64,000 nucleotides of DNA from Pocillopora verrucosa (lineage: Eukaryota; Cnidaria; Anthozoa; Scleractinia; Pocilloporidae): positions 22,669,904 to 22,733,903 of the forward strand of contig NC_089312.1 of assembly GCF_036669915.1 (NCBI RefSeq). The letters run 5' to 3'. Each line of letters starts with the position of its first letter. Within the stretch, counting starts at the first letter, position 1. The position numbers and the translations under genes were made by a program. Shown one piece after another: positions 33,516 through 58,957 of the stretch. Below the pieces are notes generated by a model. The model searched no databases, had not been told where the DNA came from, and worked only from the letters and a program-made list of their open reading frames with translations.

Positions 33516-33623
33516 AGAAACTATTGTTTGCCTTGAACTGTCAAGAGTGTTATCTATTTTAATAAACTGAGTTTCTAGTTAGTTGGATTGTTGTTGTTGC
33601 TCGCTCAAGCACACAAGTAAATA

Positions 33624-34140
33624 TGGGGATCTCCATTGACCAATTCCGTTCAAGGATTGGATCTCATGAAGATTTACATCCTGATTTAAGTGAAAACTAT
33701 GACCTCTCTGATAATCTCAACATTCCATCAACATCGCTGAATAATGAACCACTGATATTGAATGAATTACCTGATTTCGATTTCGTCAAATGGTCCAGAC
33801 ACCCGATAAAGAGCAAAAAGAATTTTTTATCACATTTTACATCAGATTAAAACCTCAGAAACCCCTTTCTACTGCTTCCTCAGTGGAGGGGCTGGTGTTG
33901 GCAAATCGCATTTAACAAAAGATTTGTATCAGGCAGTGCTTAAGTATTATAACACTAGGGCTGGTGATGATTTTCATCAGATCGAAGTTATACTATTAGC
34001 TCCAACTGGTAAAGCTTAATGGTAACACTCTTCATAGAAGAGTCCACGCTAATTTGCATATCGCAGAGCGCCCACAAGAACTCGTTTCTACGCTATCGTG
34101 TATCCACGAGTTAAACAGTAGTAGCAGAAATTTTTTCAAT
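33624..34140 (+). pseudogene. Frameshifted PIF1-like helicase remnant of a mobile element
   Basis: An ATG at 33623-33625 opens a frame (MGISIDQFRSRIG) that runs to 33849. Shifted frames then give DKEQKEFF, YHILHQIKTSETPFYCFLSG, the Walker A motif GGAGVGKS (33885-33908) and LLAPTGKA at about 34000 just before a stop. These are the first two motifs of PIF1/RecD-type helicases, which in animals are often carried by Helitron or Helentron elements. At least one frameshift near 33827 and a stop near 34018 make it non-functional. No ends of the parent element were identified. Confidence 0.6.
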
Positions 34141-34927
34141 TGTTTTTCAATGACTGTTACGAAAATATTTACTGCTCCAAGTATTTCCAGTATTGCCGTA
34201 TAAACAAATAAATAGCCTAAGCCACCAAGAGGTAATTTAATTGTTGAAGACGATTACCAAACGTTCAAAAACACGCCAAAAAGCTTCCAGGGAGGGAGGG
34301 AAAGGCATATTGCTTGATAAAAGTATAAGTTAATACCCCAGATCTCTCCTGTGAATCTGTATTTGTTCAAATAATTCCCGCACAAAAATTACTATTCAGG
34401 CTGTTGATTCCAGGCCTAATATCACCCCTGTAGTACAGTTGACTCACGGTAAGCGACAGGTTTGCTTCCACTCAAAAACCCCTTGCAAACACTTTGTCAA
34501 TGAAATCCCACACAAGTACGCATTGCGGACCTATTTTTTAGTCTACTGTTCAAATTAACGTTTTCTGTCTTTTCAAACCGATAAACAATGAGATTCGCAA
34601 GTAAATTTAACAATTCAACAACGAATAAAAGGCAGAAATAACGAAATATCAGAGAAGGAGTTTTTAAAAGTTTTGCTCAAAGTTTAAAGAACTTTCAGAT
34701 GTCCTCATCCTTAAATCGTCACCGTTTCTTCAAAGTAAACACTGTTGCGACAATTTAAACATCCCATGCCTGTAATAAGAGTCGTCCACAAGTGGTTAAG
34801 TTACATGAGGAACCTCTTCAGTGTGGAAGTTTTTTAGTTTCCTTTCCATTGATAACGAGAGAAGGGTTATTGCCCTTTTTTCCGGACGAGGATAAGCTGA
34901 CGAGGTGTACAGTAACTAGCTCACTAG
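34141..34927. other. Intergenic / 3' flank of the death-fold NHL gene
   Basis: No coding signal seen. The region is the downstream side of the minus-strand gene ending at 34928 and should hold its 3' UTR. Confidence 0.4.
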
Positions 34928-37900
34928 CTACTGAAAAACATGAATACAGTCATCATCAACGACATACAAGTTGCCGGTATTAGATGCAGCTATTGAAATT
35001 CCTTTCTGTTCGACCTCTATTTTGTAAAGAAAGTTGCCTTCCACTGTGAACACCTTAAGCGTCTTATTATGATCCTCACTCACAATCAGGTTGTCAAACT
35101 TGTCAATGGCAAGACCACCTGGCTTCGTCAACCATCCCTCAGCGGATCTATAACCACCAATATCATACAGAAACACTCCGTCTTTGTTGAACGTTTTGAC
35201 GCAAGCAACCAGCAAGTCACAGGACACAAAGAACATGTCCTGATGATAAACAGAAAACCGCGGGAAGTGTGGATCGCTGAAGGACTTTAATAATTTTGTA
35301 CCATCAGGGGAGAGGACGTCTACTGAACTTTTACCCCGGTCACAAACGATTATGCTTCCATCGTGCGAAACAGACACCGCCACCGGCTGTGTCAGGTACC
35401 CTTGGCCGATTTCTTTAATTGACTCTCCTCTTTCGTCAATCAAGTACAATTTTTTTTTGTGGTTGGAAAGCAGAATTGCAACGAAACTGCCATTTATGGT
35501 GAAGTCCATGGAAAATATGATGTCCTCCAACCAAAAATGCCTTACCAATGAATGATCAGCACCAAGTATTAGCATTAATTTATGCCATTTGACTGCGATC
35601 TCGTTAGTCTCCTTGTTAACCGCAAGAGCAGGGGAAAACGACCCGTCATCCACTGTTATATCAAACGCACGTTTGTATTGATGTGGAGACACCTCTACAC
35701 TCCAGGGACTGCCAGTCAGCGGCTGACCATTCACTGTAATTGTTACGCTGTGCGGACCTACAATATCTGGTGTGAAGCTCACAGTGTAGTTACCATTCCG
35801 ATTGTCTTCAATCTTCTTTTTTACAAAGTTTCCTGACAAAGCCTGAATTTTTACACCAACTTGATTATCTGCCTCATAAAAAAGATTTCCTTTCGCATCC
35901 TTCGTCGAAAACAAGATTTTTATTTCTCTTCCAGCCTCTACTTTGAACGCATCTGTTAACAGGAGAAAAGAAAAGAACTCACTATTCCGTTTTTGTTTTT
36001 TTTACGTGCTTGTATGTCTTAAACGATAACCTGCATGGTGTAAGCTGATTGGTCAGTTTAGCCGAGCGACGAGAAAAGGTGATGTCAACAATCAACTTGC
36101 TGAACATTATCGACCTATGAACCACGCTATTGACTGGGACTCTGCGCAGCACTAATAATTTTCAACGACTGAATCTGGAAAGCTGGTTTACAGACTCCCC
36201 TAAACAGGTGTCAATTACTATCGGCTCCATACAAACGACTTATGTACGATATTAATATCTAAAACGAACCGAACAGCACGACCTAACTATACCGACGGAT
36301 CGAAACTGACCAATCGCGACTGACTTACGATAAGTCGTGATTGAGACTTACAGCCAATAACATCACGGCTAAAGTGACGTTATTAGCTGAGTTTACACGA
36401 ACCAGACCTAAAACTCAGAATTAAAATTATACGTAGTAACGACCAAACCTGAACAATTTCATCACGAGTTTGTCTATAGTGTGAAAACGGCAAAACGAAT
36501 GGGATACGCACCAAAACTTCTCAAATTGTTTACCAGTCCAGAAAAGTGAGGTCGAAAATTTGAGCATTGTGCTTTTGAGCGTCACCCCAGAACTGAAATG
36601 GCATTGCGCTCATAATTTTTCATTATGCTCCTTTAATAATTATTAATTTAATTGTAGAGCTTTTGAGAGACTTCAACCTCGTCTCTCGATTCTCAAACAA
36701 TGCTGTAGATTGTTTTTAAAAACTAGGTTCAAAGCTAAAATACGAGCAAATGAAATAGTTGTTGACTAATAAATCTTTCATACGATTAGAATACAAACGA
36801 ACACTTTCCTCATTGCCCTCATTAAAAGTTCAACAATAGAATAAGGTCTACAAAGAAATACAGCCCACCCCAGATATTGCACGCAGATTCGAACAACCAG
36901 AGTTCACAAAAGATTGATTACAATAATTACCGTGCGTTTCCTCGGCCTGAAAAGAATATGTCGGCGGTCCAAGGTCGTTCTTTTGTACGGTGAACCTCGG
37001 TAGCTTCCTGGACAATTCTCCTTCGTTACTCAGCCTCCATGTGTGAAAGGGGTCTGAAATATGAACAGGTCCTTCATCAGAGTAGTGTACATGGGAAAAC
37101 AATTTGCAACATTTCAGCATAACTTTAGGAATGTACAAAAATCAAGGTCAGACAAACAGCTCGTTCTTCGTCAGCGTTCCAATTTAACATTTCCGTCAAG
37201 TATCTCAAGTGCTATCAGGAATTCTCCGCCGAACTGCTATTCCGCAAAATCGTTGTTTCCCGTTATTGTCATCTTTAACAGCTAAGGCACTCTTACATCA
37301 TGGAAATATCCACCCTCGAGAGCATATTAAACGGTCAAGTCGAGAGTGTTCAAACAAGTCCTATTTTTTATCTCTTAATTGAGATCAATAACTTATACAC
37401 TATTTGAGGCTCCGGTCTCTGGAATGCGGCGGTTAAATGTCTACGCACGTGCAAACGTTTTAATTACTAGGTAGTGCGCTTTCAGGTTGCCAGAACCAAG
37501 TTATCGGCTCATAAAAGTTACAAAAAAACCTTAAACTTTACTTTTTCTGAACCTTTCTTTGAGCATTTTTCTTTTCTACGTGTATCTTTCATTACTCACT
37601 CAGAATCCCTCCAGCGGTTGGCCATCCTATTGAAGTTGGAGGGGGAGACATCCCAACAGCGACAGGTGTTACTGATCGGTTAAAGAAAAAATGGCAATGA
37701 GAGGTGGTTATTTCGGCAAATTATAAAGGTAGCATTCAAGCTTCAGCTCTATGCAAAAATTTCAGGTGGTGTGCATGTGTTTCTGTTTTAGTGCCTTCGT
37801 GAACAAATCAATTAGACGAGAAGCATTCGGGGAAACTCCACTGGGAGCCGAGGATTAACCGATAAAAGGTTTGAAAAATAGATGAGCATTACAAAGCAAA

Positions 37901-40900
37901 AGAGATAAAAGCGATGATTTACTTTGATCTTCACCCAAAATTTCTCCAAATTCCTTTTCTGAACCGTAACTGCTGTCCTTCGAAAACGATCCGCGTCTCG
38001 ATGGGAGATAACTTAAATATGTATCGATATTCTCCCTTCTGGACCAGTCCAAATAAGGAGGAGGTGGTGTATCTCCGCGAATTTCTGTTAAAAAAGATAT
38101 GTTCAAGTTGATATTAAAACTATTAGGATTAAATTAAAGAACTGCAAGTATTCCAGAAGTTCCTGCATTACATGTGGCTATGTTGTAGTGCAAACACTCC
38201 TAAAAGATATAGGATCCTTTTAGTGTTTAAGGCGTAGTTTCCGTCACAAAATAGAAATAATGTAGCACACCTTCAAATAATGTGATAAAAATGATGATTC
38301 CTTTTGAGAAATTAGCAGAAAGACTTAGCAGAAGAAAAAGCACTTGGATAATAAATAACTTATTAGACGTTTTGGTATGTAGTATCGCTGAGTATTTTTA
38401 CTCCTTGTTTGTCTTTCGACTCGCCCCAAGGGCGCTTCCCTCGTATATAAGTAGATAGAAGGTTGGGAAAGAGTAAAATAGGGACATTATCATGAGAATC
38501 ATGATGCGATAACTTTACTTTACTTTTTTTTTAGAGGGCACGGTAACGAATCCTGCAAGCTGACTGGTTCTTTACCCGGTCAGTATTTTCCTATCTCTGC
38601 CCACGGGCCGCGGTAACGCTTTCGTGAATCGCTAAGTACATCCCAAATTTTGTTGCCATTTTATTATTCTATTTTCGGTGGGCATCCACAACTTTTTATG
38701 TGGGCCTCCATCGATCCAAATGCATTCTAATACTCAGAATCGGTGTTTTCATTATTGCCCTGCCTTGTGGTCGTAACGTTCTCCAACTGAAATAAGCATG
38801 TGCACCATCTGAGGGCAGATAATATAAATTAAAGCCACAGCTATGCCATCAAACATTTTCATTCAAAATCATGTTGGAAGAACATGTTTTACTGTTCAGC
38901 CACCTTTTCCAACATTAAATCTTAATGTATTTCGATGTTTGATCCAGATCAAACATTTTCATCGAACATTTTGCATCACGAGTAAATATTTGATCAATTG
39001 GCCACCCGAAGTTTTGTGGAACACACACGATATTGAACGCAAATGTTTGATTGTTTAACGGGGCTTAAGATTGCCGTGCATGATTTTTTTACTATATGTT
39101 TGATCTTAAATGTTTCGCGGAAAAGACTCTAAATAAATGACTTGCTTAGGTTTTCTTTATTTGCTAAGCTTTGTCAGGCTGATTCTAAGAAAGATATGAT
39201 ATTAATTAGTCTCCTGTTGTAGGCAGGAAGTAAGTATGGAAAAATTTTAAGCAACACGACAAATGAATAATTATCTATATCATAGAAAATGAATTGTGCT
39301 ATTTCATACCATCGTCTGCCTGATCGGCGACATGTGCAAGCTGATGAATTTCTAGATCTCTTTCTTCCTGTTCTCTGTATACCTTCGAAATCCTGTCGAT
39401 TTCACTTTCCAGTGTTTCAATTTTCTCTTGCTGAAATTTAATTTCTGCTGTTTTTAATGAAGACAGTACAGCTGCCGCCTCATTTTCTTTAGGTTTTATA
39501 TAGACGACAGAATCTGAGTTCCTTCTATTTATTTCCCTCTGACGACCATACTCCTCGTCTTTAAAGACTGGAAATCAAAATGAAAAGCAAACAAACAGAC
39601 AAACACAAAATAAGCCATCAGAAACTCAGTCTTGAATTTTTGTCACCAGATTTTACTTGCTCCAATCATGGTCGACGTATTGCAACAAAATCATAATAAC
39701 TTAACATCTTTTTGACAACCCTCCAATTTTTGCAAATTTTTGGATGGAGGAAAGACTTCGCACGTCTGTTATGTGTAGTTTCCATGGTGTCCGAGTTGCT
39801 TTTGATCATTGTTGTTCATGCAGTGTAATTGACGTTATTGAAGTAGACTCTCTTGTCTTTTTATGAGAGTGGAACTAAGCCATAACCGCCCATTGCTTAA
39901 GGAGGATAGTCCTCGGTTGTATCTGGCCTTTTGGCGTTTTAAGAAAAACCTTCGTATCTTCGTTAAACACTGCAAGTCACTGCATGAAAGACCAACGAAG
40001 TACAATCACGATATTGAAATATTTACCTTGCACCTCAGAGTCCATCATAAAATCCAAACAGGCGTCTTGATATTCCTGTTCATCAATGTGTACTGTCACA
40101 ATCATATCTTCACCATCTGCTAGTTGTTTTATTTCTTCTGTCACCAGAAAGTCTTGTAGCCTTGCCTGTAGTGTGTTGTCCTGGTATTGTTCCCATAGCA
40201 ACTGGAGGGCTGCTCTATCTTCTGCCTGGACTGTAAAGCATAAGGACCCATTCCCTATCGCCCTCAAGCTGTTGGCTGCCGGAAGGATTGCTTCGTTAAA
40301 GAGATTTGCAAATTGTTGGATATCGTTGTCGCCTCTGGAATATTTATACAGGACAACACCAGCACCAACTGCCACTACCACACCACCGACGGTCTTAAAA
40401 TTACAGTGAACATTTACAGCTGTTCGAGGGATAACAAACAAAGTTGATAAATAGTTGAAATTCTCTGCAAACCGAATCAGAGATGGGTCATGGTTTTTCG
40501 ATAATCATAAAGTTATTTTTTACATTATCCTGCATTTGGAGGGTGGTTGAAAGTCCAAGGCAGCAGGCTTAGGAGGTGCTGCAAAAACCTGAGGGCTAAG
40601 TTTTCGCTTGAAGGCGGGAATCGCGGGCTGGAAGGAGCTTGTCTCATTCATTGAGGTTGAAAGCCTGCATTGCAGGATTGGTAACCAGGCCTGAACCCTG
40701 TCGCATCTCAGCCACTGGGCTAACACTCCATGGCTGGAGGGTGGCCGAGTGTCAAAAGCATGCCTTTGGGGGAGAGGGCTCAATCGACATTGCAAAAACC
40801 TGGTAGCTAGGTTATCACTTGACAGCGGTCATCACTTTTTGATAAGAAAAGAAAAGGTATATATATATTTGATATATATTTTCAAATTGCAGCGTTTTTG

Positions 40901-43507
40901 AAAACGGGTATATATATATTTATCCGTATGAAAATCATCAATATATATCGCGCTCTACTTCTACGTATCGAGCACGAGCACTGTTCAACAGAAAAATCCA
41001 AACAGACTTCCTACATATATATCTATTATATACATACCGAGATTTACGCGCCAAAAAGCATCGAGATAAAAATAGTCTCTTCGCGCTAGAGAAGCCAGCT
41101 GATTGCACTGTAAAATGAAAAGAGCCAAATTGACCCCAAAAGCCAAATTGGCCCCAATTTCTCGAGGGCCAGTTTGGCCCATCAAGGTTCGTTTTGGACT
41201 ATTTGAGCCAAAACGGGCGGGACAGGTACCATTTCGACCCCTCCAAAATCTGAATTGGCCCCTATGAATTCTACTTTGGAACTTTTTCTCAATTTGGCCC
41301 TTCCAAGAGCCAAGTAGGATTGACCAATTTGGCCCCAACGAGGTGCAATTTTTGAAAAAAAAAAGAAAATATAAAAATAATTTTCTTTTTTCGACCATAT
41401 TTCGTTCCCTATACTATTCCTTATAAAGTGTTCAAATTTTCAACGGTTCCTCTCGTAACTGAACACCGAGTCACATAACGAATTAATCGTTGGCTTTTTC
41501 TCGAGACGTGAGCGTGAGCTGCCTGTGATGGCATTAGTCGAACCTAGACCACGTGCGTCGGAAACAATAATGAATTATAGCAGCGAATTCGTCACTGAAG
41601 AGGCTGTTTCTTGGCTACAGTCGCATGGAATGAGACTTAAGAAAGGAAAGGTAGGCAAAAGAAATTTCTTAACAACGTATTTTATTGCAACTTTATATTC
41701 ACAAACTTGACCGCTCATTGATCTTTGTTCGTATCTTATCTTGCAGAAAAAGACGGTTGCGACGGCCAAGATCTCCTTGTCATCGCCCAAGATGCAGACG
41801 TACCAAGGCACTACATCCCTATTATAAAAGAGCGTCTAAAGCTCAAGAAATTGATTGCAATGAACGCTGAACCTAGAGATGACACGAGTTCTTCGTCGGT
41901 ACGATAATTAATTTTCCCACCACTCTCTCACTCTGAATTCTTAATCTTTTTCTTGAAAAGATGAACTGATATTTTTATGTCTATGTCTTTGTTTGCATCC
42001 ACTTAAGCTGATTTTTTGGCTCTCACTCTTTCAGCGTGCAGAATCAAGTCCTTCGAGTAAGATGGTTCAAACGTCGATTGATGATTCAGATAACATCAGC
42101 GATTATGAAAATTTAGAGGTGACATTGGCACCGAAAGAAAAGGGTAAATCGCCCAAGGATCTCTGTTTTACGGACGAGGCGACAGAACTGAGCACTGTCT
42201 AATAAGTTCTTGTATATTAAACTTAGCAGGATGGTGAAGAGTACATTATCGATTACTTTCTTTCGATTATATCCTAAAGGAAAACACACAAGGTGCCAGT
42301 TGGTCAGTTAAAGATGACAAATCTCGGGGATTGCACCTACAAAAATGGCGAGATTTGCTTTATTTTTATTGAAATATATTAGATATGTATTTACTTGCAC
42401 CATGCATAAAACAAAGTAAACCCAATTTTTAAATCTGGTAAATTAAAAAATTAGTGAATTGAAAGGATGTTATCATACAGTTTAATTTTTTTGAAAACAA
42501 ATATTTACCTACAGGTTCCTCCTGAATGGCTTTCAAAATTCCAACTACCATCGAGGGTAAGAAACTTTTCTTTGTTTTGTTTTCTAAGTCTACAAGCAAT
42601 CCTTATTTATTCATGAATACTGAACTAAAACTGAAGTGCATAGAGGTATGATTTCTTTTCTTGATAAGTACATATACAGTTTGGTGAAAATACATCATTG
42701 ATGATCACCATTATTGTGTTTTTACTTCTTATGCACAGTTTGCTTACAAATATTTTGCAACTTTGTAGTTGCAAAAATTTACTGTTCTCCAACAACAAAT
42801 TAATTTGCTCATTTGTTTGTTTTTTGTACAGTTCTCTGCCTCAGTAGAGTTGGATACCCAGAAGGGATATCTCATCAGCAGCCTAAAGTACTCTGAGCAA
42901 CAGTGGATTGCAAAAAAAAAAATTATTGCAGAGTATCCTTGTATGGTTAGCAGGATACTAGACTAAGTTGACTTGGAAACTGAATGGATTGGTATGGTCT
43001 AAAAATCTATTGCTTCACCTCTTCTGCTTGCAGTGAAGAGAGACAATTTTGTGGTGCTGAATCTCTTGCCTTAAACTAAAAAGTTGCAAAATAATCACTC
43101 TCGCCTTTTAAGTTCATGACCTTTGTTCTTGTGTGTTTGTCATCACATGCATTTAATGAAGTTGTGACCATTTTGGAGGTACAAGTCCAAAAAACTGCTA
43201 CTTTGGTACTAAGATGAACAGCTAAAATTTCTGAGCCCATTTGCCAATGAAGTCCAGATACAAAGGTTCAAGTACTTTGGGGTTGTATTAATTTTGCCTT
43301 TTTGTTTAGTTTTTTTGATTTTGCAATTTTTTAAAATATTCCTGTTGTCAAACCATTAGATAAATATTGGACATAGAATAGCTGATTTTTTTCAGATATT
43401 TTGAGAGTCATACATTAGTTTTTCAAGTCTTGAATGGGAGACAAATTACACACATTGAGCTAAACTTCCACTTCCATTTCTGGTGTTTTAGCTTATAGTT
43501 TTAGAAA

Positions 43508-43555
<48 letters not shown>

Positions 43556-45946
43556 GTGGGGGTAGAGTCTACCTTGGCATAAAGTGCTCAATACTGTGGT
43601 AGCAGAGCTAAGTATACATAAGTTAAAGAATTAAAGAGGACACATCAATTCTCTGTGACTCTGAATTTCACACCTAAGCGGTTGTCAGACAGAACTTTTG
43701 TCTGACAAGCACTTAGGCACAAAACTCAGTCACAGAGAATTGATGCGTCCTCTTTAATTCTTTAACTTAAGTGTGTATATATATATTCTTTTTTTTTTTC
43801 TGGCTACAGGCACTTTTTGCACTTTGGCTTGATTTTAATGTGGTTGTAAAACTTGTTTTTATTGCATAGAGTAGCTGATGTTGATTCAGCAATCAGAGAT
43901 TATGTCCAGCACAAATTTTAATTGTTGGAGATCTTCAATACATCAATCACCTGAATATAGTAACAGAGGGAAGTGTAATTTGTCACTTCTCACAAGAAAA
44001 GATTCTTGATGCTCTCATTGGGTTACTTGGCTCATTTATATTTTCTTACAATCGGTCAAAGGCAATTTTGACTTTTTTTAGAGCAAGCATTGCTTGAAAT
44101 TGGGCACAGGCAGACTCTTGTCACTGTTTCCTCTATTTTCAATGACTTGGCAAATGCCTGCGGTAGTACTTGCTGATAGTTTATATTTTGATAATATCTA
44201 AAGTAGCAATATGAGTGCATGTATTCTCACATCCACTGGAAGAATACTCTTTGCTGCTCTAAGGCTCTTTGTTTTTCATATGCACAAATCAAACAAGATC
44301 TATATTCTTGTGCAGGAACTGGACCATTTGTTGCCTCTGTCTTATTTTGATAATTTTCTGTACTTTAAATCAGTCTTAATTATAAGCTGCTTTACATTAC
44401 CACATTTGCTAAGTCATTGAAAAGGGAAGCTTTACTCACAAGTGTCTCTTGGGTGTAATTTCTTGCAATGCTTGCACTGTTAAGAAGTATACTGATTTAG
44501 GGAAGAGATCTATTTTAGAAAATGGTTGAATTAATGTTAAATATGTATGTATGTTATATTCTTTCACGTGATGTTTCAAAGTTTGTCTGTTTTATACCAC
44601 AATTAAGATTCTTAATAACTGTAAAATCAGGTAGCATAAAAGGTTTTTACATAAACAATATCTAGAACCTAATAAATGAGTGTTTGAAAGATAAAGTATG
44701 TGGTGTATTTTCATTATTTGAATGTAAGGGGGAAAATCAGCATGGAGAGGAAAGAGCCCTCTACTTCTGAAGTGGCCCACATTGGAGCTGAATTGGCTCT
44801 TTTTAAAGGGGCCATTTGTGAGAGGGCTGAAATTTCGGGGGCTGTTTTGGCCCCTATAAATTTGAAAGTGGCCCCTGTATTTTTCAAATTCACCCTTCAC
44901 ATGGTCCAATTTGGCCCCTACAACGGGGTCAATTCAGCCCCGAAATTGGTGCCAAAAACAGCCCCATTTCAATGGGGCCGAATTGACCCTAAGTGAGTGC
45001 CAAACTGGACTCACTCGTTTTGGCCCCATTTTTGGGGCCAAATCAACTCTTTTAATTTTACAGTGTGGTCAACGATATTTTTCACTAGTGAAAAACGATG
45101 TATCGACGCTCTGATTGGCTATATCATTATTTTCACCAGTGAATAAAACCGTGTTGCTTGCTCTCCACTCCTCTTGACTGACAAATAGCACATTTCTAAT
45201 AGCTTAGGCGCGTTTTTCTTTAGAAAGATGGCTTCAAATCACACTAACCGTTTTCAGAACCTGGATTCATCAGTAGAAGAGTTCATAGACGGACAACAAA
45301 ATGAAAACACCAAGAAAAAGACCAAACACGATGTTGCTCTGTTCCACGAATTTCTTGTTTTGAAAGGCGAGACGAGACAAATTGATGAATTGACTCCTCA
45401 AGAGCTGAACAAGTTTCTTAGCGAGTTTCTTATAATGGATCACAAAAAAGAAGACAACGAGGAATACAAACCTAATTCCTTAAGGGCATTCTTCGCTATC
45501 TTTGAGTGCCATTTGAAGAAAAAAAACTATAGACTTTGCCTTATGAAAGACATCCAGTTCGAGCAAACTCGGAAAACGCTTCAGTCAAAGCAAAGTGACC
45601 TAAAATGGAAAGGCATGGGTAACAAGCCAAATGCATCTTTTGAATTTTGAACTAGCGTAGAACTATTTCGACATATTTTCAGGATGTCTTATTTTATTCT
45701 AACTAGTTCTGCTCGATAATTTAAATGTAAAGTATTTTACAAGGAAACCATTTCGGGGCAACTCTCGAACTGTGAGGTGGCTTGATCATGACTGCGCATT
45801 GTTTTCCTTTGAAAGAAAATGAAGATATGTTCATCCTTGAGTTCTGTTCGTCTATGAATCTCAGTATATATATATTAAATAAGTTATTTCACGGTTAGAT
45901 CGCTTGTGTACGACTTTTATTCACTCGTTGTGAATAAAAATCGTAC

Positions 45947-45999
<53 letters not shown>

Positions 46000-47693
46000 A
46001 ATGTTTCTCTCTGCGTGAGAGGTGCGCAGGTTCATTTCCTAAACATCAACTAGCTGTGGAGCACAAAACGTGATACATTGTGGGGTCACAGTCTTTATTT
46101 TTTTTAATCACCACTTACCTCCCATTAGTCTTCCAACCACTCTGGGTACAGCATAAACAGCTGCAGCACGAGCTGAAATTTAAATTGTGATTCTGTCATT
46201 CATAGATAGGGTAAGCCATAAAATTGAGCAAGGTTCAGCGGGGTCTAATAAATTTGGTAAGCCTCAGGAAATTAATATGGACTTAAAAAAATGCGGTCAT
46301 CAAAATCAATAGAGGAGGTAAGGGCTTCCCTGGAAACATTGCTTAGTTCTACAGGAAACTGGTCGCTCATGCCTCAAGACTACAAAAGATTGTGATCAAA
46401 AGAAAGCTTACATCCATACAACAAGTGAACGACATAAGGCTACAGTCTTGTTTTTCAACAGAGACCTAGCAGAATGGCCCGGACAATATCGAACAACAGA
46501 CCTGATTCGATTTTGATGATCGAGGAACTGCTATATATATATATATATATATTATACATTAATTGCACTGACATGTCCTTACTTTGACGGCCATATTTAT
46601 ATGCTTAACTCATAGAGACATAACCACGTTACAGCGAAGACCAATGAGCGGGCTCATTCTGACCCTATCTTGCCGGGGTAAAACACGACCGTGCATCCCT
46701 CAATAAACTTTCTATTTTAGATTGCCACGGCTCAATGCCTGAACCATTATTTATAATTCTAGACCATTATTTTGATTCGAGTTACACATGAGTATAATTT
46801 TTTTTATATTTTCAAAAATTCGATTCAGAAACCCGAAAGTGACGGATTCATTGAAAAGGACAATGAAAACTTCTGATCAAACGGTTTTTAAGGGGATTCA
46901 CGGTTCTTAAAGGGTTTGGAATAACAAGTACATGCATCCCTGGGCTAATTATAAGCTTCTATTAATTTTTGCCTAAAGTCAAACGAACCTAAGTTCGTTG
47001 CTCGCGTCTCAAGTTACCAAAATGTATTTGTGCATGGGATTCATTCGAACTCAGTGTTATTCACATGCAATTCACACATGCCAGCCCTAAAGAAAGCAAA
47101 GAGGGACTCTCACCTTGACTTCTTTCCTCAGCTTCCATTCTTTGTCTGTCTCTGATGTCCTCGTCCTTCCGTTTCTTCTCAAATTCATCAACTTCCCATA
47201 AGAGTTCATCTTCTCCCGTTTCCTTTAAAATCTTTTTCAAAATTCCAAGGCAGGCAGGTCCTAAAAGGTTCTTGCTTTCAAGTTTCTCGAACAGGACGCG
47301 AATACTCTCTATTTCGCCCTCTCTATCCTCCGCCAGATGAGGAGTGCAAAAGTTGATCAGTCGTTCTAGATCATTTAACTCGTCGAGTTTATGAATTACC
47401 TTCTCTAACATACAATGATAATTTTTCCTTTTGGTCTCGAAACTTTCTATTTCGTCGACCAGGGCCCATTTCTTAACTCTTCTCAAGAGTTCTTTCAGGT
47501 GCTCGAGATGATCGATTCCTAAGTTACTCTGAATCTCTAATTCTTTGAGTAAGGCAGCAACATTTCCAATATTATTTTCACTTCCCTCGGCTATTAGATC
47601 TCCACATAGCGACAAGAGTGTTTCGCCTTCAGTCTGCCAGTCGATCCCTTGGCTAACTTTGCAGTGCAAGGTACGGTATTCGATTTTAGACAT
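34928..47693 (-). CDS. DED-DED / TRADD-N / coiled-coil / filamin / NHL protein (novel architecture)
   Basis: Seven exons: 47693-47114, 46172-46119, 40419-40027, 39567-39310, 38084-37923, 37053-36931 and 35952-34928, giving 864 residues in one frame. Residues 1-95 and 105-190 are two death-effector domains (LKELLRRVKKWALVDEI; LGILKKILKETGEDELLWEV). About 219-237 is a Gly/Val-rich hydrophobic stretch (TVGGVVVAVGAGVVLYKY). About 240-340 resembles the TRADD N-terminal domain (GNGSLCFTVQ, LLWEQYQDNTLQARLQ, IVTVHIDEQEYQDACLDF). About 345-420 is a coiled coil. About 525-620 is a filamin repeat ending GQPLTGSPWSVEV, and 640-864 is an NHL propeller (WLTKPGGLAIDKFDNLIVSE). DED and TRADD-N domains bring together caspase and TNF-receptor pathway proteins; filamin-NHL modules in TRIM proteins bind RNA or partners. 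An adaptor in cell death or immunity is inferred. The weakest link is the 5.7-kb second intron. Confidence 0.75.
39568..40026. other. Intron 3 of the death-fold NHL gene
   Basis: Lies between the TRADD-N exon and the coiled-coil exon. No other feature recognised apart from the splice signals themselves. Confidence 0.6.
40535..40830. repeat. Imperfect direct repeat, two copies about 200 bp apart
   Basis: GGAGGGTGGTTGAAAGTCCA at about 40539 with GCTGCAAAAACCTGAGGGCTA recurs at about 40736 as GGAGGGTGGCCGAGTGTCAA with TTGCAAAAACCTGGTAGCTA. Both are followed by a TCACTTGA/TCGCTTGA motif. In intron 2 of the minus-strand gene, just left of the large TIR element. Confidence 0.5.
41528..42202 (+). 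CDS. Unidentified gene inside the TIR element, first three exons
   Basis: Exon 1 starts at 41528 (MALVEPRPRASETIM, then EEAVSWLQSHGMRLKKGK). Exon 2, 41747-41898, reads KDGCDGQDLLVIAQDADV then YIPIIKERLKLKKLIAMN. Exon 3, from 42035, reads QTSIDDSDNISDYENLE and ends at a stop at 42202. With the ordinary GT donor at 41651, exons 1 and 2 are out of phase. They fit only if a GC donor at 41655 is used (AG before GCAAAA) or if one base is lost. Exon 3 may instead leave at the donor 42119 to join the exon at 42515. I recognise no family. It could be the element's own protein or a captured host gene. Confidence 0.45.
42515..42966 (+). CDS. Further exons of the TIR-element gene
   Basis: Exon 42515-42556 (VPPEWLSKFQLPSR, flanked by CTACAG and GTAAGA) and exon from 42832 (FSASVELDTQKGYLISSL, then EQQWIAKKK) are phase-compatible with each other and with the donor at 42119. 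The second exon either splices out near 42933-42942 or runs to the stop at 42964-42966. Ten A in a row at about 42912-42921 make the frame there vulnerable to a length error. No family recognised. Confidence 0.4.
43510..43552. repeat. (TA)n microsatellite
   Basis: About 21 uninterrupted TA units, roughly 65 bp before the palindromic element. Confidence 0.95.
43619..43769. mobile_element. 151-bp palindromic (fold-back) element
   Basis: The left arm TAAGTTAAAGAATTAAAGAG pairs with CTCTTTAATTCTTTAACTTA at the right. The match continues inward for about 70 bp (ATCAATTCTCTGTGACT, GTCAGACA) with few mismatches around a short loop at about 43697. Short TA-rich tracts lie on both sides. Nested inside the larger TIR element. 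A MITE or an inverted duplication within a TA repeat. Confidence 0.75.
43870..44098 (+). pseudogene. Frameshifted last part of the TIR-element gene
   Basis: After an acceptor-like TTGCATAG the sequence reads VADVDSAIRDYVQHKF and hits a stop. Shifting frame by one step at the AAATTTT run gives ILIVGDLQYINHLNIVTEGS, then SQEKILDALIGLLGSFIFSY. The second piece has strong coding character (alternating strands, then a helix LDALIGLLGSF) of the kind seen at the C-terminal end of some repeated cnidarian and fish proteins, but I cannot name the domain. The frame break means this copy is probably dead. Confidence 0.4.
45228..45650 (+). CDS. N-terminal core-binding part of a Crypton/ZMYM2-type tyrosine recombinase-like protein
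   Basis: Intact 140-codon frame from an ATG in good context (AAAGATGGCT) to TGA. It reads KTKHDVALFHEFLVLKG, then LTPQELNKFLSEFLIM, YKPNSLRAFFAIFECHLKKK and ends MGNKPNASFEF. This helical pattern is the DNA-binding N-terminal half of Crypton-derived recombinase-like proteins (DUF3504-associated; related to ZMYM2, QRICH1 and KCTD1). The catalytic half is missing: the stop falls where it would begin. It lies 160 bp right of the TIR element, opposite in strand to the host gene, in its intron 2. It may be a domesticated or truncated DNA-binding protein, or a recent remnant. Confidence 0.6.
   Translation: MASNHTNRFQNLDSSVEEFIDGQQNENTKKKTKHDVALFHEFLVLKGETRQIDELTPQELNKFLSEFLIMDHKKEDNEEYKPNSLRAFFAIFECHLKKKNYRLCLMKDIQFEQTRKTLQSKQSDLKWKGMGNKPNASFEF
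45908..45997. repeat. Hairpin followed by (TA)n microsatellite
   Basis: GTACGACTTTTATTCAC and GTGAATAAAAATCGTAC (45908-45946) form 17-bp arms with one mismatch around a 5-base loop. They abut about 25 TA units (45947-45997). The arrangement resembles the palindrome near the (TA)n at 43.5 kb. Confidence 0.85.
46290..46529 (+). pseudogene. Broken protein-like fragment, unidentified
   Basis: The plus strand reads SKSIEEVRASLETLLSSTGN, then WSLMPQDYKRL, a stop, SKESLHPYNK, two more stops and GYSLVF. The stretches between stops look coding, so this is probably a decayed mobile-element or duplicated-gene exon in intron 1 of the minus-strand gene. Family unknown. Confidence 0.3.
46530..46552. repeat. 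(TA)n microsatellite
   Basis: About 11 TA units in intron 1 of the death-fold NHL gene. Confidence 0.9.

Positions 47694-54926: not shown

Positions 54927-58957
<4,031 letters not shown>

Follow-up and report, generated by a model that had tools for sequence, protein, structure and literature searches.

The window, a stretch of 64,000 nucleotides of Pocillopora verrucosa DNA, carries on its minus strand, at positions 34928-47693, a predicted gene of seven exons and six GT-AG introns with phase 1 at every junction. The exons read through in one frame to give a predicted protein of 864 residues (hereafter, the window protein), in which the splice into exon 7 is a prediction from genomic DNA. 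Two death-effector domains (DEDs), a TRADD-like_N domain, a filamin repeat and an NHL propeller were each identified above their own Pfam cut-offs, with concordant structure comparison, and the domain architecture DED-DED-TRADD-N-filamin-NHL is firm. The original prediction had named these same domains, all of which were recovered by the profile and structure searches. Its proposal of a single minus-strand gene with seven exons in one frame was supported by the splice phases and by the full-length counterpart in Stylophora pistillata described below.

Exon 1 (47114-47693, aa 1-193) begins with the start codon and encodes both DEDs (DED1, ~47433-47660; DED2, ~47172-47411), which were matched by Pfam DED in two stretches (63.8 bits) and at the same places by a genome-wide DED search. 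Exon 2 (46119-46172, aa 194-211) is a short linker with GT-AG introns on both sides (phase 1/1). Within intron 2, and outside the protein, lies an open frame on the plus strand (45189-45650) with a Pfam QRICH1 match of 19.7 bits against a cut-off of 30.8, which we presume is perhaps a mobile-element remnant. Exon 3 (40027-40419, aa 212-342) encodes a hydrophobic segment of 30 residues (~40331-40419) followed by TRADD-like_N (Pfam, ~40130-40327). Exon 4 (39310-39567, aa 343-428) contains an RRNSDS motif and a helical coil, and a helix was predicted at the homologous place of a related protein, P0003. Exons 5 (37923-38084, aa 429-482) and 6 (36931-37053, aa 483-523) are linkers with no known domain, both having GT-AG introns on either side (phase 1/1). 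Exon 7 (34928-35952, aa 524-864 and the stop codon) encodes the filamin repeat (~35702-35938; 58.1 bits) and a six-bladed NHL propeller (~34931-35695; 22.1-27.8 bits). The AlphaFold2 model of exon 7 had a pLDDT of 89.9 and its top Foldseek match was the filamin-NHL of LIN41.

Protein searches identified a full-length counterpart in Stylophora pistillata (P0001, LOC111336627; labelled tripartite motif-containing in UniRef) with 65% identity over 100% of the length. Identity between the two proteins ran through all exons, with 79% in exon 1, 17 of 18 residues retained in exon 2, and 67, 60 and 39% in exons 4, 5 and 6. By domain, the DEDs and TRADD-N were 78-80% identical and the filamin repeat 76%, with the NHL at only 56%. 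P0001 has the same domain order as the window protein, including the RRNSDS segment, the coil and the linker exons 4-6; its TRADD-N was assigned by alignment, there being no TRADD-like_N Pfam match at E ≤ 0.001. A search with an Oculina query identified two proteins of Oculina patagonica, P0052 and P0053, that also have two DEDs, TRADD-N, filamin and NHL in the order of the window protein, but in which the RRNSDS segment, the coil and the linker exons 4-6 are missing. The predicted order of DED-DED, TRADD-N, filamin and NHL agrees with Pfam and with these proteins from other anthozoans. In addition, P0003 is an intron-free ORF of 566 codons on a contig of 2371 bases, in which homologues of exons 1-4 are joined, as in a cDNA.

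The hydrophobic segment (aa 212-241; 40331-40419) was identical at 30 of 30 residues in the window protein, P0001, P0002 (Oculina LOC144643930) and P0003, and the adjoining TRADD-N had 65-78% identity across the same proteins. The TRADD-N fold probably begins with this segment. A membrane anchor was considered and not adopted, the best Kyte-Doolittle 19-mer being borderline at 1.71. AlphaFold placed a strand in the first third of the segment, with a loop and a short helix in the remainder; an anchor is still conceivable because the local confidence there was low.

The window protein is not a TRIM. It has the filamin-NHL fold in common with TRIM-NHL proteins (TRIM71/LIN41, TRIM2, TRIM3), but neither a RING nor a B-box was identified in the Pfam scan of the predicted protein (E ≤ 0.01), and its coil is not TRIM-like. 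Among the relatives compared, every BLASTP alignment of the exon-4 coil at E ≤ 0.1 (10 of 10, to nine proteins) was to a DED-TRADD-N protein, and the coil is set apart from the filamin repeat by exons 5-6. The TRIM/NHL relatives P0006, P0010, P0012 and P0013, some of which have a RING or B-box, had tblastn matches in exon 7 only. The earlier comparison with the back half of TRIM2/3/71 was therefore borne out for filamin-NHL and not for the coil. The same scan (E ≤ 0.01) identified no NTPase, in which the window protein differs from NLR/STAND receptors, and no caspase, pseudo-caspase or other effector or catalytic domain.

The window protein is a member of a known, expanded marine kind of DED-TRADD-N protein. 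In the parts of Kaur et al. 2021 (PMC8195603) drawn on here, DED-TRADD-N proteins are described as expanded in marine animals, including cnidarians, and as having variable C-termini, among which WD40 propellers and TRIM E3 domains are named. The same parts report variable WD40 propellers in amphioxus and propose that propellers next to TRADD-N recognize invaders directly. As far as those parts describe them, these proteins and the window protein have in common a constant DED and TRADD-N, variable C-termini, cnidarian copies and propeller or TRIM C-termini; the window protein is distinguished by its two DEDs and its filamin-NHL C-terminus. An N-terminal death fold is provided by the two DEDs and was also seen in the homologue P0003, and TRADD-N is present. 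Behind like N-termini the C-termini differ, with filamin-NHL in the window protein and P0001, HEPN_DZIP3 in P0002 and no Pfam domain in P0003. P0002 is as near to the window protein in exon 3 as the Stylophora protein is (82-83% identity), yet it has HEPN_DZIP3 in place of filamin-NHL and contains the RRNSDS-coil segment twice. The terms NHL and filamin had 0 occurrences in the main text of Kaur et al. 2021 (PMC8195603), its supplementary architecture table aside, and that table may list P0001. The original statement that no described protein has this combination was too strong as to kind, as DED-TRADD-N proteins with variable C-termini have been described (PMC8195603, in the parts used), and the unnamed database proteins P0001, P0052 and P0053 share the order. 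It held in that no published report of the DED-TRADD-N-filamin-NHL combination itself was found in the literature searched.

In a TRADD-N tree, the window protein grouped with P0001, P0002 and P0003 (100/99), and the tree required two changes of NHL label. In a filamin-NHL tree of 28 rows, built with strict trimming, the window protein, P0001 and the Oculina TRADD-N protein P0004 formed one clade (99/98), which in a tree of 46 rows also contained P0052, P0053 and five metagenome exons (100/99). Both a single ancient fusion with later replacement of the C-terminus and several fusion events involving related donors would fit these trees.

The 353-Mb genome had at least 104 DED and at least 61 TRADD-N matches, many of them clustered on C1, C5 and C6, and these arrays represent a lineage-specific multiplication in the genome of the window. 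A Pocillopora verrucosa protein, P0063, matched one locus of this genome at 78-100% across six pieces. DED-DED-TRADD-N arrays were located at C1:21.80-21.98M, C5:2.07-2.32M and C6:7.98-8.14M, and the C1 array runs on into a conserved, unnamed C-terminal region, as in P0005 and P0049. The C1 array ends ~0.72 Mb from the window gene, and filamin-NHL genes lie 140-210 kb from it (C1:22.49-22.56M). A local fusion of these neighbours was considered but found no support, as the two C1 NHL rows compared, L039 and L045, did not group with exon 7. The best exon-3 match elsewhere in the genome was on C6, which also counts against local fusion. At L039, L043 and L045 (C1:22.49M, C9:18.0M), stretches like the HEPN_DZIP3 of Oculina P0010 were observed upstream of filamin-NHL frames. 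No filamin-NHL was found near other TRADD-N genes in the ~10-kb downstream stretches of 20 of the 61 TRADD-N matches. At least one further TRADD-N/filamin-NHL pair was present among the matches listed, identified by eye on C7. This locus (L047, C7:23389000-23396500, minus strand) has TRADD-N-like exons at ~4796-4362, 3736-3290 and 2841-2404 before a filamin-NHL exon at ~1693-549, and a hydrophobic exon upstream; the exon borders were set by eye, and one of the four candidate exons was above its Pfam cut-off. In the filamin-NHL tree its NHL is placed elsewhere and has a long branch, suggesting that this fusion arose separately.

To examine variation in exon 7, we reduced 53 protein-search matches to 35 filamin-NHL-sized ORFs that were compared, and used the 19 with at least 69% identity to measure variability. 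These exon-7-sized ORFs, which come from public assemblies labelled ena or lgn, are 19 clusters at 90% identity, comprising 348 member sequences that are 69-95% identical to exon 7. They are known from exon-7 ORFs alone, so that a link to DEDs is presumed for them, and they may mix alleles, paralogues and species differences. Variability was measured on protein only, and the entropies, taken from cluster representatives, indicate which sites differ and are not allele frequencies. In six of the seven variants inspected, the letters ahead of the filamin repeat matched those at the junction of intron 6 and exon 7 in the window itself, which supports genomic DNA as their source, either at the same locus or in close copies of it. 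Among the matches listed for the genome of the window, the next full-length matches were 40-41% identical for exon 7 and 53% for exon 3, and the 69-95% variants are therefore probably differences between genomes. Partial exon-7 matches reached at least 57% over 94 residues, with 119 of 328 candidates scored. No close copy of the window gene was present among the matches listed, although a collapsed assembly could hide copies.

Mean pairwise identity across the 19 clusters was 92.6% in the filamin repeat and 79.5% in the NHL. The NHL/filamin change ratio of 2.76 was exceeded by only one of 13 other pairs (P0017/P0025, 2.89), and an NHL that changes much faster than filamin is thus not unique to the window family.

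The distribution of the variation within the propeller was strongly uneven. Assignment of loops to the upper or lower face followed the strands predicted in the exon-7 model and the loop order typical of propellers, guided by the LIN41 contacts. Mean entropy within the NHL was 0.97 in upper-face loops, 0.24 in lower-face loops and 0.40 in strands, and variable sites made up 73 of 84 positions in upper-face loops versus 29 of 74 in lower-face loops. The 30 most variable sites included 23 on the upper face, where ~10 would be expected, and one on the lower face. This bias was retained when the analysis was confined to 12 less redundant rows (19 upper, four lower and seven strand sites in the top 30) or to the 10 closest rows (20, three and seven, respectively). 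The upper-lower entropy difference of 0.74 was equalled in one of 246 circular shifts, and sets of Stylophora-like (n = 6) and Oculina-like (n = 13) sequences showed the same upper-face bias. A control set of 14 RING TRIM-NHL proteins had no such bias. Two coral NHL control sets without DEDs (n = 5 each) showed a weaker bias (0.30 and 0.34, values reached in 9 and 4 of the 246 circular shifts, respectively), and so the bias is not exclusive to the window family.

In LIN41, RNA is bound on the upper face. Fourteen RNA contacts of LIN41 are named in the part of the structural report used here (PMC5908797), of which 12 could be mapped onto the window protein in an alignment at ~20% identity, the other two falling in gaps. 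Mean entropy at the contact-equivalent positions was 1.43, versus 0.50 elsewhere in the NHL, and one in 100000 random site sets was as high. Seven of the 12 ranked in the top 22 of 247 sites and one ranked 200th. The changes at aa 712 were radical (Q/R/L/W/C/G/E/K). The upper-face variation of the NHL and the variability at the LIN41-contact equivalents are new here; upper-face variation in an NHL was not encountered in the parts of Kaur et al. 2021 (PMC8195603) consulted.

Since variability on the upper face far exceeds that on the underside of the propeller or in the filamin repeat, the protein is likely a diversified sensor. We consider it about as likely as not that the NHL propeller, with its diversified upper face, detects a ligand of foreign or non-self origin and starts a DED assembly that leads to cell death or inflammation. 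Binding of such a ligand to the upper face would release the DEDs, which together with TRADD-N would recruit FADD- or caspase-8-like partners into the assembly. The output would be cell death or inflammation, which we assume from the general biology of FADD, caspase-8 and TRADD. The filamin repeat may serve as a conserved stalk or spacer on which the propeller is displayed, and a regulatory hinge or oligomer contact may be provided by the RRNSDS segment and coil. Linkage of DED signalling to NHL-mediated partner binding, as first proposed, is our best reading of the protein.

A more specific version, which we put forward tentatively, is that the window gene encodes a polymorphic non-self receptor of reef corals, in which a hypervariable NHL upper face, held by the filamin repeat, would bind the ligand and signal through the tandem DEDs and TRADD-N. 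If so, the receptor would have a role in pathogen defence or colony allorecognition, corals would swap C-terminal modules (filamin-NHL, HEPN and others) behind one death-signalling head, and the receptor would be to animals what the HET-D/HET-E propeller sensors are to fungi. In the part of the HET-D/HET-E work considered (PMC12222747), those proteins likewise combine a death-signalling head with a propeller that has hypervariable sensor sites, but they are NLRs with highly similar repeats, whereas no NTPase was detected in the window protein. Coral tachylectin-2 (PMC2880987), a lectin, is presented in the title of its report as a putative immunity gene that is highly diverse in amino-acid sequence and under positive selection.

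Several other explanations were weighed against a diversified sensor. One, which we regard as rather unlikely, is a FLIP-like decoy or regulator, in which FADD/caspase-8-type filaments would be capped or blocked by the tandem DEDs, with the NHL serving only to localise the protein or to bind a partner in the cell. The window protein shares an N-terminal DED pair and structural matches with caspase-8, cFLIP and FADD, including matches to cFLIP and vFLIP, yet it has TRADD-N and filamin-NHL instead of a caspase or pseudo-caspase domain. With a tandem DED lacking a protease, and with no effector domain in the Pfam scan (E ≤ 0.01), an inhibitory role is possible on architecture alone. A FLIP-like role would, however, leave unexplained both the concentration of variation on the NHL upper face and the HEPN of P0002, whose N-terminus is alike.

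Relaxed constraint, under which surface loops tolerate change and the gene drifts after domain capture with no sensing, we consider unlikely. It would be in keeping with the NHL outpacing filamin in some TRIM pairs too, the milder upper-face bias in the two small control sets and the low NHL Pfam score of the window copy (22.1 bits), and the open frames in all 19 clusters prove little, as they were collected as ORFs. Drift does not sit well, however, with lower-face loops that are nearly fixed (0.24 versus 0.97) and a filamin repeat that is 93% identical, nor with a pattern that recurs in three sequence groups and is missing from the 14 RING TRIM-NHL proteins.

A TRIM71-like regulator, whose NHL would recognize RNA and be coupled to death signalling, is improbable. 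The nearest solved fold is the LIN41 filamin-NHL, which has also been solved bound to RNA, but only one of the 12 mappable contacts was identical (R707), with one K for R, in the part of the LIN41 report used; the equivalent positions were highly variable instead of conserved, the NHL part is acidic (net charge -9, pI 5.5) and there is no RING. Judged by its residues, the window protein is not a LIN41-type RNA binder, and the NHL-mediated RNA binding raised in the original prediction was unsupported. RNA could still be the ligand, as RNA-directed domains occur in relatives according to the parts of Kaur et al. 2021 (PMC8195603) cited above. Finally, a gene-model artefact, in which a DED-TRADD-N gene adjoins a separate filamin-NHL gene to which it is not spliced, is highly improbable: intron 2 is 5.7 kb long, the model rests on genomic DNA and protein searches found no annotated Pocillopora protein of the same domain order, though Pocillopora proteins were in the database, but full-length counterparts in Stylophora and (two) in Oculina, with homologous linkers or direct joins, make an accident unlikely, as do phase 1 at all junctions, the single clade formed by the filamin-NHL parts of these proteins and the cDNA-like union of exon 1-4 homologues in P0003.

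To our knowledge, the ligand-binding surface of DED/TRADD-N proteins is seldom known. For the window family, the variable sites can be named, with upper-face positions such as aa 631, 646-647, 688, 712, 714, 769-772 and 800; they map to one face of an established fold, and amplification of one exon would recover them from populations. Polymorphic intracellular sensors of corals, whether for symbionts, pathogens or other colonies, are therefore directly testable. In the window protein, moreover, the recognition module of TRIM-NHL proteins stands apart from RING and B-box and is joined instead to an adaptor head of the caspase type.

Two other features of the window lie outside the gene. On its 3' side, at 33566-34203 on the plus strand, there are broken frames similar to an AAA/PIF1-type helicase (AAA_19, 24.7 bits; cut-off 25.1), perhaps a mobile element. 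At 55284-55652, also on the plus strand, we identified a protein kinase exon (65.4 bits) that by eye is cyclin-dependent-kinase-like.
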